A stretch of 64,000 nucleotides of DNA. Source: Thermalbibacter longus (GTDB lineage Bacteria > Chloroflexota > Chloroflexia > Thermomicrobiales > Thermomicrobiaceae). Positions 14,920-57,698 of the stretch are shown here, in pieces (position 1 is the stretch's first letter; every line of letters starts with the position of its first letter). The stretch spans positions 1-64,000 of the forward strand of contig NZ_JAMSLR010000007.1 in the NCBI RefSeq assembly GCF_023806485.1, given 5' to 3'. Under the pieces are notes generated by a model. It was not told where the DNA came from. It saw only the letters and a program-made list of their open reading frames with translations, and did not search any database. Position numbers and translations under genes: made by a program.

Positions 14920-15393
14920 CTATGCCGGCGCTCGTGTCCCCGCTGCCCGGCTGCGCGACCAGCAAGCGGAACACGTGCCGAAGATGGCGAAGTGATCCAT
15001 GCGAGCTACGAACCCATAGCGCTCGCGCAGCGCTGCCCGCAGCGGCTCGAGCAGATCGTCTTCCAGCTCGAACACGGCTCCGCACTGCTGGCACACGAGG
15101 TGATGGTGCCGCTCGGCACGGACGAGCTCGAAGCGCCGAACACCGCCCCCGAGATCGGTCTGGGTCACCAGCCCAAGCTCTACCCCTAGGTCCAGGTTCC
15201 GGTAGACCGTCGAGAGATTGACATCAGGGTGCTGAGCCCGAACCACATCGTAGATCTCCTCGGCGGTGCGATGACCACCCAACCGCGCCAGCGCGGTAAA
15301 CACGGCCAGGCGCTGACGCGTCACCCGCTGACCCGACTGGCGTAACCGCTCCGCGACCCGGCGGAGCTCGGCGCTCCAGAAGTCTCTGGCCAT
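14920..15393 (-). CDS. Fur-family metalloregulator
   Basis: A 157-residue DNA-binding repressor. The winged helix includes VTRQRLAVFTALARLGGHRTAEEIYD and VNLSTVYRNLDLGVELG. The metal-binding region has ERHHHLVCQQCGAVFEL, and the C-terminus has a second pair in CSACW, so the structural zinc site with two CxxC motifs is present. This is a Fur/PerR/Zur-type protein; the sensed metal is not clear. The ATG at 15393 fits the family N-terminus; an extended frame to 15522 is unlikely. A second Fur protein is encoded at 53880-54338, so this one may sense a different metal. Confidence 0.88.
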   Translation of the reverse strand: MARDFWSAELRRVAERLRQSGQRVTRQRLAVFTALARLGGHRTAEEIYDVVRAQHPDVNLSTVYRNLDLGVELGLVTQTDLGGGVRRFELVRAERHHHLVCQQCGAVFELEDDLLEPLRAALRERYGFVARMDHFAIFGTCSACWSRSRAAGTRAPA

Positions 15394-15547
15394 CCCTGGC
15401 CCCCGCTTCCAACATGCCCCCGCCACCGAGACTGTCTCGATGGCGGAGGGATTGCATGTCTCGACGTGTCCCTGTCGGTAGGCTCGCATCAGGATGGTAA
15501 CGCTGTTCCAGACCGGGGACAAGAGGCAGCACCGGAGCCGAGCGTGG

Positions 15548-17767: not shown

Positions 17768-18802
17768 ATGCATATCCCGGATGGGTACATCAGCCCTGCG
17801 ACTGCGCTGGCGTTCTACGGCGCGGTGCTTCCCTTCTGGTGGGCCGCTGGCCAGCGGCTCAAGCGCGTCCTCACGGGCCAGCTCGTCCCGGCCCTGGCGC
17901 TCTTCTCCGCCTTTACGTTCGCGATCATGATGTTCAATATCCCAGTTCCAGGCGGTACCACCGCGCACGCTGTCGGTGGGACGCTGGCCGCGGTCGTCCT
18001 GGGTCCCTGGGCAGCGATCATCTCCGTGTCAGTCGCGCTCATCATCCAGGCGCTCTTCTTCGGTGACGGCGGTATCACGGCCATCGGAGCCAACTGCTTC
18101 ATCCTCGGGGTCGCCTTGCCTCTCACCGGCTACGGCGTCTACCGGCTGGTCAGCGGCCGATCCGATCCACTGTCGCGGCGCCGGCTGCTGGCCGCCGCGA
18201 TCGGGGCCTATGTCGGGATCAATGTCGCGGGCCTGCTGGTCGGACTAGCGCTCGGCATCCAGCCCATCTTCTGGAGCGAGAACGGGCGAGCGCTCTACTC
18301 GCCGTACGGGCTGCGCGAAGCAGTGCCGGCAATGTTGATCCCACACCTGACGATCGCCGGAGCGGCCGAGGTGATCGCGACGGTCTTCGGCCTCGCCTAC
18401 GTCCAGCGGGCCCACCCCGAATTGCTGGAGCGGCGAGCGGCGACCGCGCGAGTGGCTCCATCAGCCCGGCGCTTGACACTGGCCATCTTCGTCCTGCTCG
18501 CCCTGTTCAGCCCGCTCGGCCTGCTTGCAACCGGAAGCGCATGGGGCGAGTGGGGTAGCGATGAGCTAGCGCAGCGCGTCGGCTACGTCCCGCGTGGCCT
18601 GGAGGAACTCGAATCGCTCTGGAGCGCGCCGCTCCCTGACTACACGCTCCCGTGGATGACGGAGACGGCGAGTTTCGCCGAGCAGGCGCTCGCCTACATT
18701 CTGTCCGCTATCGTCGGCATCGCCTTGATCTTCGCTACCACGTTCGCTCTGCGGATCCTGCTTCGACCACGACAGGGCCAGCAGGCCACCGCAGGCGGCT
18801 AG
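17768..18802 (+). CDS. cbiM: Cobalt/nickel ECF transporter, substrate-binding subunit CbiM with C-terminal CbiN/PDGLE-like part
   Basis: A 344-residue membrane protein that captures Co2+ or Ni2+. It starts MHIPDG, the invariant N-terminus whose Met and His bind the metal. Also present are the family motifs FAIMMFNIPVPGGTTAHAVG and QALFFGDGGITAIGANCF. After about seven helices, the C-terminal third (from about residue 225) adds two helices with an extracytoplasmic loop, like the separate CbiN/NikN or PDGLE subunit. It is therefore a natural fusion. Co versus Ni cannot be decided. It is the first gene of a tight M-Q-O operon. Confidence 0.92.
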   Translation: MHIPDGYISPATALAFYGAVLPFWWAAGQRLKRVLTGQLVPALALFSAFTFAIMMFNIPVPGGTTAHAVGGTLAAVVLGPWAAIISVSVALIIQALFFGDGGITAIGANCFILGVALPLTGYGVYRLVSGRSDPLSRRRLLAAAIGAYVGINVAGLLVGLALGIQPIFWSENGRALYSPYGLREAVPAMLIPHLTIAGAAEVIATVFGLAYVQRAHPELLERRAATARVAPSARRLTLAIFVLLALFSPLGLLATGSAWGEWGSDELAQRVGYVPRGLEELESLWSAPLPDYTLPWMTETASFAEQALAYILSAIVGIALIFATTFALRILLRPRQGQQATAGG

Positions 18803-18810
18803 GAGCCAGC

Positions 18811-19674
18811 ATGACCGCTTCGCCGACTTCCCGGCGCCGCAGGGCGCGCAAAAGCTTCGTCGAACGGACGATCACCGGGGTCGGCGCCGCGATCGAGCAG
18901 ACGGTGTACGCGGAGACGTACGCGCGGCAGGACGGCTTCCTCCAGCGGGTCGACCCCCGAGCCAAGGTCGGTCTCTTCGCGCTCGCGCTGCTGGTGACCG
19001 GTCTCGTCCACGACCTTCCACTCCTGGCCGGCCTCTGGCTGGGCCTTCTCGGTCTGGGCATAGCGACACGCCTGCCCTTCCGCGTCATCGCGGTGAGGAC
19101 GATGCTGGGCGTCCCACTCTTCACCGGGCTGGTTGCCCTGCCCGCGCTCTTCCTGGTCGATGGCCGCTCGCTCTTCACGATCGGGCCGGTGGGCTCGATA
19201 ACGTTAACGGTGTCGGACCAGGCCGTCCTCAGCGTCGCGACCTTTCTCCTTCGAGTGAGCGCATCGGTGACGCTGGCAGCGCTGCTGGTGTTGACCACCC
19301 GCTGGGCCGACTTGCTCAAGGCGCTCCGCATCTTCCGCGTGCCGGACGTCTTCGTCATCGTCTTGGGCATGACCTACCGCTATGTCTTCCTGTTGCTCCG
19401 GCTCACCGAGAATCTCTTCCTCGGGCGCGCCAGCCGCACAGTCGGCAGGACGTCGTCCGGCGAACAGCGCCGCTGGGTCGGCGCCAGCATGGGGACGCTG
19501 ATGAGCCGGAGCCTCAAGATGAGCAATGACGTCTACGCCGCGATGGTCGCCCGCGGCTTCAGCGGGGATGTACGGACACTGGCGACGTTTCGCATGCGCG
19601 ACGAGGACTGGCTGTTCGTCTCGCTCGGCGTTGCCCTGCTGGGGCTGGCCTGGCTCGTGGATCTGAGCCGGTGA
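18811..19674 (+). CDS. cbiQ: Cobalt/nickel ECF transporter, T component CbiQ
   Basis: A 287-residue membrane protein with a cytoplasmic N-terminal region, DPRAKVGLFALALL at the first helix, several further helices, and the coupling motif AAMVARGFSGD before the last helix. The ATG at 18811 has AGGAG that overlaps the CbiM stop. The larger open frame from 18652 overlaps CbiM in another frame and is not the start. It links CbiM to the ATPase. Confidence 0.9.
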   Translation: MTASPTSRRRRARKSFVERTITGVGAAIEQTVYAETYARQDGFLQRVDPRAKVGLFALALLVTGLVHDLPLLAGLWLGLLGLGIATRLPFRVIAVRTMLGVPLFTGLVALPALFLVDGRSLFTIGPVGSITLTVSDQAVLSVATFLLRVSASVTLAALLVLTTRWADLLKALRIFRVPDVFVIVLGMTYRYVFLLLRLTENLFLGRASRTVGRTSSGEQRRWVGASMGTLMSRSLKMSNDVYAAMVARGFSGDVRTLATFRMRDEDWLFVSLGVALLGLAWLVDLSR

Positions 19675-20501
19675 TGGCGCAGACGGGCCCGATCTTCCGG
19701 CTGGAAGGCATCTCGTACCGCTACCACGGTCGCCACTCCGCGCTCGACCAGGTCGACCTGGTCGTCGAGCCGGGAGAGCAGCTCGTTATCCTGGGGGCCA
19801 ACGGCAGCGGCAAATCGACCCTGCTCAAGATTCTCGACGGTCTCTATCGCCCGACGAGTGGTCGCCTCTGGGCCTTCGGCGAGGAGATCACCGATGTGGC
19901 CGACGACCCCGAGCGAGCTCGCTGGCTTCATCGCCGCGTCGGACTGGTCTTCCAGGATCCCGACGTCCAGCTCTTCTCGCCCACCGTCTACGACGACGTT
20001 GCTTTCGGCCCGCTCCAGCTCGGCTGGCCGGAAGAGCAGGTACGCGAGCAGGTGGCGCGAGCGCTCCGCGCGATGGAGGTGGCCCACCTGGCTGACCGCG
20101 CGCCCTACGAGCTGAGCGGCGGCGAGAAGAGGCGCGTGGCGATCGCGACCGTGCTGGCGATGGATCCCGAGGTGGTCTTGCTCGACGAGCCCACCGCCAA
20201 CCTCGATCCCCGCACGCGCGCGGCACTGGTTCACCTGATCCGCGGCATGCGCGACCTGGGCAAGACCGTGATCCTGACCACCCACGAGCTGGATATCGTC
20301 CCGGGCATCGCCACCCGGGTCGTGGTATTCGGGGATCAGGAGCGCCGGCCGGTCGCTTCGGGCCACCCCAGCGAGATCCTGCGCGACACCGATCTCCTGG
20401 TGCGGACGAACCTGATCCACGAGCACCTGCACTGGCACGGCGAGCTCGCCCACACCCATCCCCATGCCCACGACGGCGAGCACCTGCACGAGCACCGTTG
20501 A
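19674..20501 (+). CDS. cbiO: Cobalt/nickel ECF transporter ATPase CbiO
   Basis: A 275-residue ATPase with Walker A GANGSGKST (about 43-51), Q-loop FQDPDVQLF, signature LSGGEKRRV, Walker B VLLDEPTANLDP and the switch His in TTHELD. Its ATG overlaps the CbiQ TGA (TGATG). The C-terminus is unusually rich in histidine (from about residue 247: HLHWHGELAHTHPHAHDGEH), which may buffer or sense the transported metal. This tail supports a transition-metal role for the operon. Confidence 0.92.
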   Translation: MAQTGPIFRLEGISYRYHGRHSALDQVDLVVEPGEQLVILGANGSGKSTLLKILDGLYRPTSGRLWAFGEEITDVADDPERARWLHRRVGLVFQDPDVQLFSPTVYDDVAFGPLQLGWPEEQVREQVARALRAMEVAHLADRAPYELSGGEKRRVAIATVLAMDPEVVLLDEPTANLDPRTRAALVHLIRGMRDLGKTVILTTHELDIVPGIATRVVVFGDQERRPVASGHPSEILRDTDLLVRTNLIHEHLHWHGELAHTHPHAHDGEHLHEHR

Positions 20502-53879: not shown

Positions 53880-54338
53880 ATGCTCGCCGAAGCGGAAATC
53901 CTCGAACGACTCCAGGAGCTCGGGCTGCGGGTCACCCAGCCCCGCCGGCTGATCGTCCGCTCTGTCCTGTCCCAGAACGGCCCGTTCTCAGCCGAGGAAC
54001 TGCTCAGCCAGTTGCATCAGAGCACCTCCCCTCCCGGCCGGGCCACCGTCTTCCGCACGCTCGACCTCCTCGTCGAAATCGGCGTGCTCGACCGCGTCCA
54101 CCACCCGTCCGGACTCCACCGCTATGTGCTCGCCGGTGTCGATCACCATCACCACGTAGTCTGTTCACAGTGCGGCGCCGTCGCGGACTTCAACGGCTGC
54201 AACGTCGAGGAGCTGATCGCCGCCGCAGTCTCCCAGACCGGATTCCAGATCAACGGCCACTGGCTCGAGCTCTTCGGCATCTGCGCGACCTGCCAGCAGG
54301 CATCTGCGCCAACGCGCTCGCCGGCCGGGCTTCCCTGA
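53880..54338 (+). CDS. Fur-family regulator, probably Zur
   Basis: A 152-residue repressor with the winged helix (LGLRVTQPRRLIVRSVL, FSAEELLSQL, GRATVFRTLDLLVEIGVLD). The metal sites are GVDHHHHVVCSQCGAVADF and the C-terminal pair in FGICATCQQ. The ATG at 53880 has GGAGG upstream and a TATAAT box at 53853-53858. It is followed by znuA, znuC and znuB in the same direction, and a 7-1-7 palindrome sits in the znuA promoter, which supports zinc as the sensed metal. The gene is not in the ABC operon itself, because that has its own promoter. Confidence 0.88.
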   Translation: MLAEAEILERLQELGLRVTQPRRLIVRSVLSQNGPFSAEELLSQLHQSTSPPGRATVFRTLDLLVEIGVLDRVHHPSGLHRYVLAGVDHHHHVVCSQCGAVADFNGCNVEELIAAAVSQTGFQINGHWLELFGICATCQQASAPTRSPAGLP

Positions 54339-54419: not shown

Positions 54420-54448
54420 TTGACCGCGTTACTGAGACTCAGTATCAT
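54420..54448 (+). promoter_or_regulatory. znuA promoter with an overlapping Fur/Zur-type 7-1-7 palindrome
   Basis: TTGACC (54420-54425), a 17-nt spacer and TATCAT (54443-54448) form the promoter. TACTGAG-A-CTCAGTA (54430-54444), a perfect 7-1-7 inverted repeat, fills the spacer and touches the -10 box. Binding there would block RNA polymerase. The 7-1-7 shape is the classic form for Fur-family operators. Confidence 0.75.
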
Positions 54449-54487
54449 CTTTCCGGCGTGGCACGGAGCGAGCGCGAGGAGCAACGG

Positions 54488-55564
54488 ATGTCGAACAACG
54501 GACAGTGTCAGACGGCACAGCGAAGGTGGAGGGCTGAGCGACTGGGATACCGGTGGCTCCTCGCGCTCATCGCCGCCGCATCGCTCGTGGCCTGCAACGG
54601 CAACGCGACCCCAGCGGCGCGGGAAACCAGCACGGCAACCGCGCCGGCGGCCGCGGGTCAGATCCGGGTCGTGGTCAGCCTCCCGGTCTTCGTCTCCCTC
54701 GCAGAGGCGGTCGGCGGCGACCGTGTGCAGGTGAGCTCGATCGTGCCAGCCGGTACCGATCCCCACACCTACCAGCCAACTCCCCGCGATGCGCAGGCGC
54801 TCGCCGACGCTAAGGTGATCTTCGTCAACGGGCTCGGGCTGGAGGAATGGCTCAGCGACCTGATCGCGTCGGCCAGCTCCGGAGCGCCGGTGGTCGAGCT
54901 TGCCGAAGGGCTCGAAACCGCCCAGGACGAACACGCCCACGAGCACCCCGAGGGTACCCCCACGACCGAGCAGAGCCATGAGCACGCTCATGGGACGCCG
55001 GAAGCCGACCATGGCCACGGCACACCAGAAGGCGAGCACGGCCACGAGCACGAGGGCGGTAACCCCCATCTCTGGCTCGACCCGGACTACGCGGTCGAGT
55101 ACGTGCGCCGGATCGCGCAGAGCCTCGAGGAGATCGATCCGGACGGCGCGGCGACCTACCGGGCGAACGCCGAGCGCTACATCGCCGAGATCCAAGAGTT
55201 CGACGCCTGGGCCAAAGGGCAGGTGGAGCAGATCCCGCCCGAGCGCCGCAAACTGGTCACGTTCCACGATGCCTTCCCCTACTTCGCCGAGCACTACGGC
55301 CTGGAGATGGCGGGGGTGATCGTCCTCAGCCCGGGGCGGGAACCCTCGCCTCAGGAGCTCGCTCAACTGGTCGATCTGATCCAGCGCCATGGTGTGCCGG
55401 CCATCTTCACGGAGCCGCAGTTCAACCCGAAGCTGGCGGAGACCCTCGCGCGCGAGGCGGGCGTCGAAGTGCTGGAGCTGTATAGTGATACTCCGCCGGC
55501 CAGTGAGGACTACATCGGCATGATGCGGCGCAACATCGAGCATATCGTCGAGGGGCTGGGCTAG
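54488..55564 (+). CDS. znuA: Zinc ABC transporter substrate-binding lipoprotein (ZnuA/TroA family)
   Basis: A 358-residue extracytoplasmic zinc-binding lipoprotein (lipobox LVAC). The cluster A-I fold has VVVSLPVFVSLAEAVGG, the metal His in VPAGTDPHTYQPTPRD, the next His in GNPHLWLDPDYA, FHDAFPYFAEHYGL and the Glu/Asp region near the end (LELYSD). A charged loop (about 138-195) is very rich in His, Glu, Asp and Gly, as in zinc-specific members. The ATG at 54488 has GAGGAG; an in-frame GTG at 54458 lies close to the transcript start. The operon continues with znuC and znuB. Confidence 0.94.
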   Translation: MSNNGQCQTAQRRWRAERLGYRWLLALIAAASLVACNGNATPAARETSTATAPAAAGQIRVVVSLPVFVSLAEAVGGDRVQVSSIVPAGTDPHTYQPTPRDAQALADAKVIFVNGLGLEEWLSDLIASASSGAPVVELAEGLETAQDEHAHEHPEGTPTTEQSHEHAHGTPEADHGHGTPEGEHGHEHEGGNPHLWLDPDYAVEYVRRIAQSLEEIDPDGAATYRANAERYIAEIQEFDAWAKGQVEQIPPERRKLVTFHDAFPYFAEHYGLEMAGVIVLSPGREPSPQELAQLVDLIQRHGVPAIFTEPQFNPKLAETLAREAGVEVLELYSDTPPASEDYIGMMRRNIEHIVEGLG

Positions 55565-56383
55565 ATGCAGGTACAAACGGAACTCCAGCCATCAGCGGTC
55601 ACGACCAGCGAGCCGGTCATCGTGGTCGACCGGCTGACGACCGGCTACCACCGCCAGCCCGTGTTGGAGGAGATCAGCTTCGCGGTACCGCGCGGCGCGC
55701 TGGTGGGGGTGATCGGCCCCAACGGCGGCGGCAAGTCGACGCTATTCCGCGCGATTATCGGGCTGCTCAAGCCCTGGCGCGGCAACGTGCTCATCGGCGG
55801 CGTGCCCGCGCGGCCGAACCCGGACATGACCTACGTACCCCAGACAGACATGGTCGATTGGGTTTTCCCAGTGACCGTGTGGGACGTGGTGATGATGGGC
55901 CGGTATCCGCGACTGGGATTCCTACGCCGTCCAGGCGCGCGCGACCGCGAGCTCGTGGAGCACGCGCTCGAGCAGGTGCGCATGCAGGACTACCGCCACA
56001 AGCCGATCGGCGCGCTCTCCGGTGGGCAGCGGCAGCGCGTCTTCCTGGCCCGCGCACTGGCCCAGGAACCCAGTATCCTCCTGCTCGACGAGCCCGTCAG
56101 CGGCGTAGATGCTCCGACGCAGCATTTCATCTTCGAGCTCCTGGAGGAGCTCTGCTCCGAGGGACGCACGGCACTGGTGGCCTCGCACGACCTGAGCTGT
56201 GTCGCCCAGCGCTTTAGCCAGGTGCTTCTCCTCAACCGTCGGATGATCGGATTCGGCTCGCCGGAGCGCATCTTCACCCAAGAACTGCTGAACCGCACCT
56301 TCGATTCCCACTTGCTGCTCCTACGCTACGGCGACCGGGTGATCGTGGTCGAGACTCCGGAGAATGGCTCACATGCTCATTGA
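55565..56383 (+). CDS. znuC: Zinc ABC transporter ATPase
   Basis: A 272-residue ATPase with Walker A GPNGGGKST (about 53-61), Q-loop VPQTDMVDW, signature LSGGQRQRV, Walker B ILLLDEPVSGVD and the switch His in VASHDLS. It begins directly after the znuA stop. The short C-terminal tail ends GSHAH. It overlaps znuB by 20 bp. Confidence 0.94.
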   Translation: MQVQTELQPSAVTTSEPVIVVDRLTTGYHRQPVLEEISFAVPRGALVGVIGPNGGGKSTLFRAIIGLLKPWRGNVLIGGVPARPNPDMTYVPQTDMVDWVFPVTVWDVVMMGRYPRLGFLRRPGARDRELVEHALEQVRMQDYRHKPIGALSGGQRQRVFLARALAQEPSILLLDEPVSGVDAPTQHFIFELLEELCSEGRTALVASHDLSCVAQRFSQVLLLNRRMIGFGSPERIFTQELLNRTFDSHLLLLRYGDRVIVVETPENGSHAH

Positions 56384-57218
56384 TCTCCTACTCGAGCCTC
56401 TACGCTACGGGTTCCTGCTGCGCGGGCTGGTGGCCGCGATGTTGATCGGCATCATCTGCGCGGTCATCGGCACCTACGTCGTCCTGAAGGGATTCGCGTT
56501 CATCGGGGACGCCCTGGCCCACATCGCCTTCACTGGCATCGTCGTCGCTTTTCTGGCCGGCGTCGTGTTCTACCTCGGCGCGCTGGTGGCAGCGATAGCG
56601 GCCGGGCTGGGAATCGGCCTGATCCAGCGACGGGTCGGCCTGAGCAGCGATACCGCCATCGGCATCCTCTTCAGCGGGGTCTTTGCCCTCGGCATCGTGC
56701 TGATGAGCCTGGGTATCAAGACCTACACGGTTGACCTCTTCAGCTATGTCTTCGGCGACATCCTCTCGGTACGCCCGAGCGATCTGCTGGTGATCGTGGG
56801 GCTGGGGGGTCTGATTCTTCTGCTCATCGGGCTACTCTACAAGGAATTCCTGTTCGTCAGCTTCGATCCGCTGGTGGCCGAGGCCACCGGCTTGCCGGGA
56901 GGAAAGCTCCAGCTCCTCCTCCTGACGCTGCTCTCGGTCACTGTCGTCGTATCGGTGCAGGCTGTCGGGGTCGTCTTGGTCGTCGCCATGCTGGTCACGC
57001 CGAGCGCGGCGGCCTACCTGCTGACCGACCGCTTTCACCGGATGATGCTGCTCGGCGCAGCGTTCGGGGCGCTGTCGGCACTGATCGGCTTCTATCTGAG
57101 TTACTACCTGAATGTGCCGTCCGGCGCCACGATCGTGCTGGTCGCCAGCGCGCTCTTCGCGCTAGTGGCCTTGCTGTCACCGCGGCGGGCCGACCTTCGA
57201 CTGCTGGTTCGCGGGTGA
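56364..57218 (+). CDS. znuB: Zinc ABC transporter permease
   Basis: A 284-residue membrane protein of the ABC-3 family with about eight helices. It shows LKGFAFIGDALAHIAFTGIV, GILFSGVFALGIVLMSLG and DPLVAEATGLPGGKLQ, all characteristic. It may start at ATG 56364 or three codons later. The last residues are basic. It completes the ZnuABC importer. Confidence 0.94.
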   Translation: MAHMLIDLLLEPLRYGFLLRGLVAAMLIGIICAVIGTYVVLKGFAFIGDALAHIAFTGIVVAFLAGVVFYLGALVAAIAAGLGIGLIQRRVGLSSDTAIGILFSGVFALGIVLMSLGIKTYTVDLFSYVFGDILSVRPSDLLVIVGLGGLILLLIGLLYKEFLFVSFDPLVAEATGLPGGKLQLLLLTLLSVTVVVSVQAVGVVLVVAMLVTPSAAAYLLTDRFHRMMLLGAAFGALSALIGFYLSYYLNVPSGATIVLVASALFALVALLSPRRADLRLLVRG

Positions 57219-57293: not shown

Positions 57294-57698
57294 ATGAAGG
57301 TGGCATATGTCTTCGCGACGCCCCGAGCTGCCAGCTACAAGCTCGGCCAGATGATCCTGCCGCAGCTCGAGGCAGGAACGCACGGCGCCGAGGTGGTCGG
57401 GATGTTCTTCTTCGACGACAACGTCTTCGTGCTGCGCCGCGGCGATCCCATCGGCGAGCGGCTGGCGAAGGTGGCCGCGGAGAAGAACATCCTGCTGATG
57501 ATGTGCGACATGTGCGCTCTGGAGCGCGGTCTGGCCGAGGGCGAACCGGTCTGGTGCGACCCGGCGACCGGCCAGGGCCGCCAGGAGCCGGCCACCTGCC
57601 GGCCGGCCAGCACGGTGGAGGGAGTGCGCGTGGGTTGCTTCCCCGACCTCTACGCTGCCCTAGCCACGAACCCGCCCGACCAGGTCATCACCCTCTGA
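57294..57698 (+). CDS. DsrE-like protein (SaoD-like)
   Basis: A 134-residue protein of the DsrE/TusD fold. It reads MKVAYVFATPRAASYKLGQM, then HGAEVVGMFFFDDNVFVL, GDPIGERLAKVAAEKN, LLMMCDMCALERG and GCFPDLYAALATNPPDQVITL. From memory this is close to the SaoD subgroup of DsrE-related proteins. The CDMC and CFPD cysteines could carry sulfur or a metal. It starts 75 bp after znuB with GGAGGG upstream and may be cotranscribed with the zinc importer. Function unproven. Confidence 0.75.
   Translation: MKVAYVFATPRAASYKLGQMILPQLEAGTHGAEVVGMFFFDDNVFVLRRGDPIGERLAKVAAEKNILLMMCDMCALERGLAEGEPVWCDPATGQGRQEPATCRPASTVEGVRVGCFPDLYAALATNPPDQVITL

Follow-up and report, generated by a model that had tools for sequence, protein, structure and literature searches.

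In the available part of PMC2823685, actinobacterial Zur operators are described as 21-bp inverted repeats with a 10-1-10 architecture and boxes of the A type, the 7-1-7 element of S. coelicolor reading TGAAAATGATTTTCA. For E. coli Zur, the accessible text of PMC4219657 describes that each monomer reads the element R-N-N-N-Y, in which the initial purine is recognized by Arg65, and Tyr45 recognizes the purine that pairs with the Y. Blocking of the polymerase at the promoter is presented as the canonical mode of Zur action in the excerpt of PMC6103462, and genes of the COG0523 type are named as usual Zur targets in the excerpts of PMC6103462 and PMC2770081. According to the available part of PMC3840689, the RegPrecise collection for Chloroflexi comprises curated regulons of 5 genomes, and more than 25 groups have a curated Zur. 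RegPrecise may already contain a Zur logo for Chloroflexi, and we therefore do not claim the motif reported here as a first description. Among the matches listed in our literature searches, we recognized no work on a Zur motif of Chloroflexi or Thermomicrobiales and none on the co-variation of helix and operator in Fur or Zur proteins; likewise, none of the matches listed for the motif strings themselves was about Zur operators.

The locus studied here lies in a stretch of 64,000 nucleotides from Thermalbibacter longus, referred to as the window, whose genome of 3.63 Mb is assembled in 80 contigs. A Fur-family regulator of 152 aa, likely a Zur (P0001), is encoded on the forward strand at 53880-54338 and scores 89.2 bits against Pfam FUR, which confirms the Fur-family gene that the earlier note had placed just upstream of the palindrome. 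It is followed on the same strand by the genes of a znuA-like lipoprotein with a His-rich loop (54488-55564; Pfam ZnuA, 309.2 bits), a znuC-like ATPase (55565-56383; Pfam ABC_tran) and a znuB-like permease (56364-57218; Pfam ABC-3). Directly 3' of znuB lies a DsrE-family gene of the ELSE/SaoD type (57294-57698), scoring 209.9 bits against NF040913, above the cut-off of 152. Judged by the regulator, the nearest relatives that bear a name are Bacterium HR26 and MAGs of the Thermomicrobiaceae (Chloroflexota). The znu genes share a locus with the regulator in 19 of 30 loci of the order, several of the other loci ending at contig edges.

The start of znuA is best placed at the ATG at 54488, with a predicted ribosome binding site AGGAG (54477-54481) 6 nt 5' of it. 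Farther upstream on the forward strand, the predicted -35 hexamer TTGACC (54420-54425) and the predicted -10 hexamer TATCAT (54443-54448) are separated by a spacer of 17 bp; both are the same in G001 and G002 and read TTGCAG and TATCGT, respectively, in G003. Between and across these elements lies the 21-bp sequence TACTGAGACTCAGTATCATCT (54430-54450, forward strand, centre 54440). Its core TGAGAC-TCA-GTATCA (54433-54447), an imperfect inverted repeat, is the sole exact match of TGAKACNNNGTMTCA in the genome. With a probability of about 0.85, we take 54430-54450 to be the operator of the Zur-type repressor encoded by the adjacent gene at 53880-54338, with predicted binding, zinc signal and repression. 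A metal-loaded dimer would bind the core around 54440 and occupy the -10 hexamer of the znuA promoter together with its spacer, so that the bound dimer would exclude RNA polymerase; when zinc becomes scarce, the dimer would release the operator and znuABC would be transcribed. Sequence conservation, the position in the predicted promoter and the phylum-wide linkage to znu genes strongly support the view that the znuA promoter contains a Zur-type operator, whose likely repressor is encoded by the adjacent Fur-family gene; from them we infer binding, zinc signal and repression.

The conserved form of this box was derived from 38 znu upstream regions of 37 genomes (own genome included, G040 represented twice). 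A palindrome-constrained EM was run on 34 of the 38 regions, the window's genus being left out, and yielded de novo the motif TAtTGAtACantGTaTCAaTA at a log-likelihood of 363.9. Ten dinucleotide-shuffled sets reached 38.8-49.4 in lighter runs of 40 starts instead of 60 and 15 iterations instead of 25. Three regions (G006, G013, G017) had no match; in G017 a full box is present farther upstream, and in G006 and G013 the box sits on the contig bearing the 5' part of znuA. When applied to the window, the genus-free matrix placed 54430-54450 first with 22.8 bits. The runner-up at 56701 (16.2 bits) was discounted, as it lies within the znuB coding sequence. Not one of 19.2 million positions simulated with a first-order model reached 22.7 bits, and the box in this shifted register is far beyond chance. 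The relatives retain the 21-bp operator as TATTGAkACnnnGTmTCAATA.

Across 101 genomes, the own genome counted, TTGANACNNNGTNTCAA occurs in 36 genomes at 60 places, compared with 5 places for the reversed control. It is absent from all four genomes of the window's genus because these read TACTGAGAC. Within the order, 21 of 34 boxes have a znuA or fur match no more than 800 bp away, and two of the 13 boxes lacking such an adjoining match precede ABC ATPase genes. We further scored 80 named regulator loci, counting a match from 17 bits upward. A good box was found in 34 of the 42 loci in which the regulator adjoins znu genes, i.e., in all 13 with DNA in common with the training set and in 21 of the 29 independent ones, which contain no training DNA; the fraction was 6/38 for loci without znu genes nearby. 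Four of the eight independent loci below 17 bits carry an A-type box and the other four a weaker C- or T-type box. Further boxes lie before or near genes for an ArsP-like permease, flavoproteins and a P-type ATPase and near genes without evident zinc link. Five f12 genomes hold 17 of the 60 box places, and no zinc gene was recognized among the neighbours of six f12 box loci.

Paired boxes were also observed. At L184, L191, L198 and L204, two boxes 16-17 bp apart lie 5' of fur, an arrangement that suggests two dimers on one promoter. L021 (G072) and L022 (G075) carry two near-identical box-like sites, at 1472 and 1501, 29 bp apart; the gene just 3' of the pair in L021 matches the ATP-grasp and L-amino-acid-ligase families, and the box-linked gene of these two loci might belong to a zinc-linked peptide pathway or be unrelated.

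The identity of the regulator was assessed from its fold, its cysteines and its family scores. Foldseek matches it to Fur, PerR and Zur, and the Fur-family fold is accompanied by a structural Cys4 site, of which C95 and C98 are present in 130/130, C135 in 129/130 and C138 in 128/130 znu-linked relatives. The position after Y-x-x, which we take from the FurB alignment to be that of the Zur sensory-site cysteine, is Ala85 in the regulator. A cysteine is found there in 34 of 130 relatives and at the C107 position in 80, while 24 have none in either stretch; the sensory cysteine may thus have moved. The regulator stayed far below the cut-offs of all NCBIfam models for Fur, Zur and PerR, the top-scoring model being the iron Fur and the Zur model PRK11639 giving 60.7 bits at a cut-off of 167. 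Failing this strict equivalog cut-off is compatible with a Zur of another lineage. The best NCBIfam scores of ZnuA and of the ATPase fall on Deinococcus manganese models, again below cut-off, and together with the Fur score they would fit a Mur- or Fur-like regulator (manganese/iron), a transporter importing manganese and an operator that is a Mur or Fur box. We regard this alternative as unlikely. The nearest solved structure of ZnuA is 1PQ4, a zinc-uptake binding protein; the ZnuA motif T-F-H-D-A-F carries a His at the place taken by F-H in 1PQ4 and by S-E in the manganese protein 5HX7. His occupies the third ligand position in a zinc-type pattern, and a His-rich loop is present. Moreover, boxes in G095 precede two cobW/CobW_C (COG0523-type) genes. 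The transporter looks zinc-like by these features, and zinc is worded here as the probable metal because the NCBIfam scores favour manganese models, none of which reaches its cut-off.

Four Fur-family genes were found in the own genome, and only the znu-linked protein combines Arg54 with Arg59. The helix of the protein encoded on C34 reads Y-G-T-V-Y-R, and that on C78 reads P-R-A-T-V-Y-N, without the second Arg. Another Fur-family gene lies in the window on the reverse strand (14920-15522; C67:14923) and has the helix L-S-T-V-Y-R. About 2.2 kb from it, genes at 17768-20501 resemble by eye those of a CbiM/CbiQ/CbiO nickel or cobalt transporter, the ATPase of which has a His-rich C-terminus; by this context, the regulator is possibly Nur- or Fur-like.

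The register of the operator is indicated by the alignment of the four genomes of the genus. In it, TTACTGAGAC (54429-54438) and GTATC (54442-54446) are invariant, and the bases that vary in the three relatives are 54439-54441. These three bases are the centre of TGAGAC-NNN-GTATCA. They fall within the right half-site CTCAGTA of TACTGAG-A-CTCAGTA, the perfect 15-bp palindrome that the earlier note had put forward as operator, and contradict its centre at 54437. This palindrome (TACTGAGACTCAGTA) is indeed exact at 54430-54444 on the forward strand, lies in the spacer and extends into the -10 hexamer. The assignment of a Zur-type operator to the znuA promoter is supported in function and place, with overlap of the -10 hexamer, and its register has to be moved to the centre 54440.

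For the overlapping 7-1-7 sites of classic Fur boxes, the offset is 6 bp. The two repeats described here are offset by 3 bp and the register centred on 54437 is not conserved, which makes it quite improbable that a pair of dimers occupies overlapping 7-1-7 sites around 54437 and 54440 in the manner of 19-bp Fur boxes, even though both inverted repeats are present and the available parts of PMC5007448 and PMC4219657 describe binding as a dimer of dimers for Fur and E. coli Zur.

That the perfect palindrome centred on 54437 is itself the operator is very unlikely. It is perfect in the window, and the 15-mer has its sole perfect copy of the 3.63 Mb genome there, but the window contains 11 perfect 7-1-7 palindromes where about 8.4 are expected from base composition, so that palindromy by itself is at chance level and not significant. 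Allowing up to three mismatches, 34 places were found in the own genome versus 22 for the reversed control. Of these, 31 are at three mismatches, and the flanks were screened for the places at two mismatches (C12:24955 and C56:80734), beside which no zinc gene was recognized by eye; the further copies near zinc genes that a genome search was expected to bring up were not found there. The palindrome is also broken in the three same-genus relatives, with 1, 1 and 2 mismatches. Among the loci scanned outside the genus, it is retained before znuA with up to two mismatches only in G021 (1), G017 (2) and G028 (2), which speaks in its favour; on the other hand, an exact copy in G064 (L023, about 1430-1580) is part of a repeated hairpin-like element, GATCTACTGAGACTCAGTAGATC, and no znu match was found in this 3-kb locus. 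The repeat element lies 5' of genes that by eye resemble an antitoxin-toxin pair. The suggestion that the sequence defines a lineage Zur motif different from the classic AT-rich boxes was right in that difference and wrong in the form TACTGAG-N-CTCAGTA, as the relatives keep the other register; the operator centred on 54440 accordingly corrects the motif for searches of Chloroflexota zinc regulons. An RNA hairpin or terminator is extremely improbable: the repeat is located between fur and znuA, but it overlaps the predicted -10 hexamer, no T run of terminator length follows, and other genomes have the same box in front of fur or of cobW-type genes.

When the own genome was searched with the corrected core, one exact match and six sites with one mismatch were obtained. 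One of the six lies in znuB, and in the flanks of the other five, screened by eye through their reading frames (one gave no frame), no zinc gene was recognized; C34:313785 is inside a frame that by eye resembles a MobA-type nucleotidyltransferase. A second ZnuA-like gene (C80) has no matrix match of at least 20 bits in its 4-kb stretch (L223), and the cobW family in the own genome is represented by two weak matches only (20.7 and 21.3 bits at a cut-off of 20.7). The regulon of the own genome is apparently the znuABC operon alone, within a search that weaker sites would escape.

The base at position 6 of the half-site was compared with the residue at which the predicted recognition helix starts (residues 54-66 of the structure model, mean pLDDT 84.6). 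In the regulator this residue is Arg54, encoded at 54039-54041 on the forward strand within G-R-A-T-V-F-R. From 230 loci, 39 duplicate proteins and 61 loci without znu genes within 1.3 kb were removed, and the remaining 130 were scanned with the pattern TGA.A.....T.TCA, in which position 6 is left free. The sample is enriched in the Arg type, since a peptide pattern containing GRATV had been used in scanning for the regulator, and Leu-type loci were sought deliberately. Of the 158 half-sites at loci with Arg54 (83 loci, of which 60 have a site), 141 carry C at position 6, 13 carry T, 2 A and 2 G. Of the 100 half-sites at loci with Leu54 (39 loci, of which 38 have a site), 87 carry A, 7 carry T, 3 G and 3 C. 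Val54 (2 loci) goes with A in 4/4 half-sites and Lys54 (1 locus) with C in 2/2, and mixed bases are found for Met54 (2 loci) and Glu54 (1 locus). Two loci whose helix was not parsed by the script have C in 4/4 half-sites and read as Arg by alignment. Among 105 site-bearing loci, 9 were dropped for having neither a C nor an A majority at position 6; in the other 96, counting the majority base against the residue read by alignment gave 56 C and 0 A for Arg, 36 A and 0 C for Leu, 2 A for Val, 1 A for Met and 1 C for Lys.

Single loci depart from this pattern. Four Arg loci with a site (L142, L145, L149, L160) run contrary to it, showing T in both half-sites or lacking C, and three Leu loci (L232, L252, L287) have a C half-site. 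Under the strict pattern, 23 of 83 Arg loci are without site; for 21 of these, one mismatch was allowed, which gave C on both sides in 7, T and C in 2 and nothing in 12. On the branches that bear most directly on a switch, L339 and L348 (G-L-A-T-V-Y-R), a long branch among Arg proteins with a support of 93, read TGAGAA...TTCTCA. L315, an Arg protein placed with the Leu proteins, combines a C half-site with an A half-site and fits only in part, and L303 (Arg) has no site and is uninformative. A quick tree built without the helix columns shows 4 changes of residue class and 2 of box class, and the independent residue/box pairs number 1 (well supported) or 2 (any), in the expected direction. The association of residue and base is clean, but is backed by one or two evolutionary events. 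With so few independent switches, no sign test can reach 0.05, and for the same reason we put forward the reading of the C:G pair at position 6 by Arg54 as a proposal, to which we give even odds. The wider model could equally turn out right or wrong: in Chloroflexota Zur, Arg/Lys versus Leu/Val at the helix start would set C:G versus A:T at position 6, repressor and operators would have undergone a joint switch, probably on more than one occasion, and Arg54 would take the role of E. coli Zur Tyr45 and read the purine that pairs with the Y in R-N-N-N-Y. Such a switch of specificity by one residue and one base pair is directly testable with two proteins and two operators.

Compared with the known systems, a Leu-type form is found within the phylum itself. 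The Leu-type Chloroflexota boxes, TGAAAATnATTTTCA (for example L172 and L194 of Anaerolineales, L200 of Thermoflexus, L229-L285), have the same 21-bp frame and a fur gene adjoining znu, but A:T at position 6, and their regulators read G-L-[VT]-[TS]-V-Y-R. M. tuberculosis FurB likewise reads G-L-T-T-V-Y-R in the alignment, its helix starting with Leu where the regulator studied here has Arg; with the A-type actinobacterial boxes in the available part of PMC2823685, this agrees with the association of Leu and A. Promoter overlap is common to this operator and that of E. coli Zur, as far as the accessible text of PMC4219657 goes, and G-A-K-A-C fits R-N-N-N-Y, namely as G-A-G-A-C and, on the opposite strand, as G-A-T-A-C. 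The E. coli box differs in that it spans about 30 bp for two cooperative dimers, and E. coli helix 4 starts with Pro60 at the place of Arg54, counting back from Arg65 (Arg59 here). The frame is shared with actinobacterial Zur: according to the same part of PMC2823685, both have the 10-1-10 repeat with a 1-bp centre, the TGAnA...TnTCA frame, a place in the znu promoter and a Fur-family regulator, and they differ in C:G here versus A:T there at core positions 6 and 10 and in the own-genome regulon, which here apparently is one operon. Zur operators are a known kind, of which the form found in this lineage, with its C:G pair at position 6, represents a variant.
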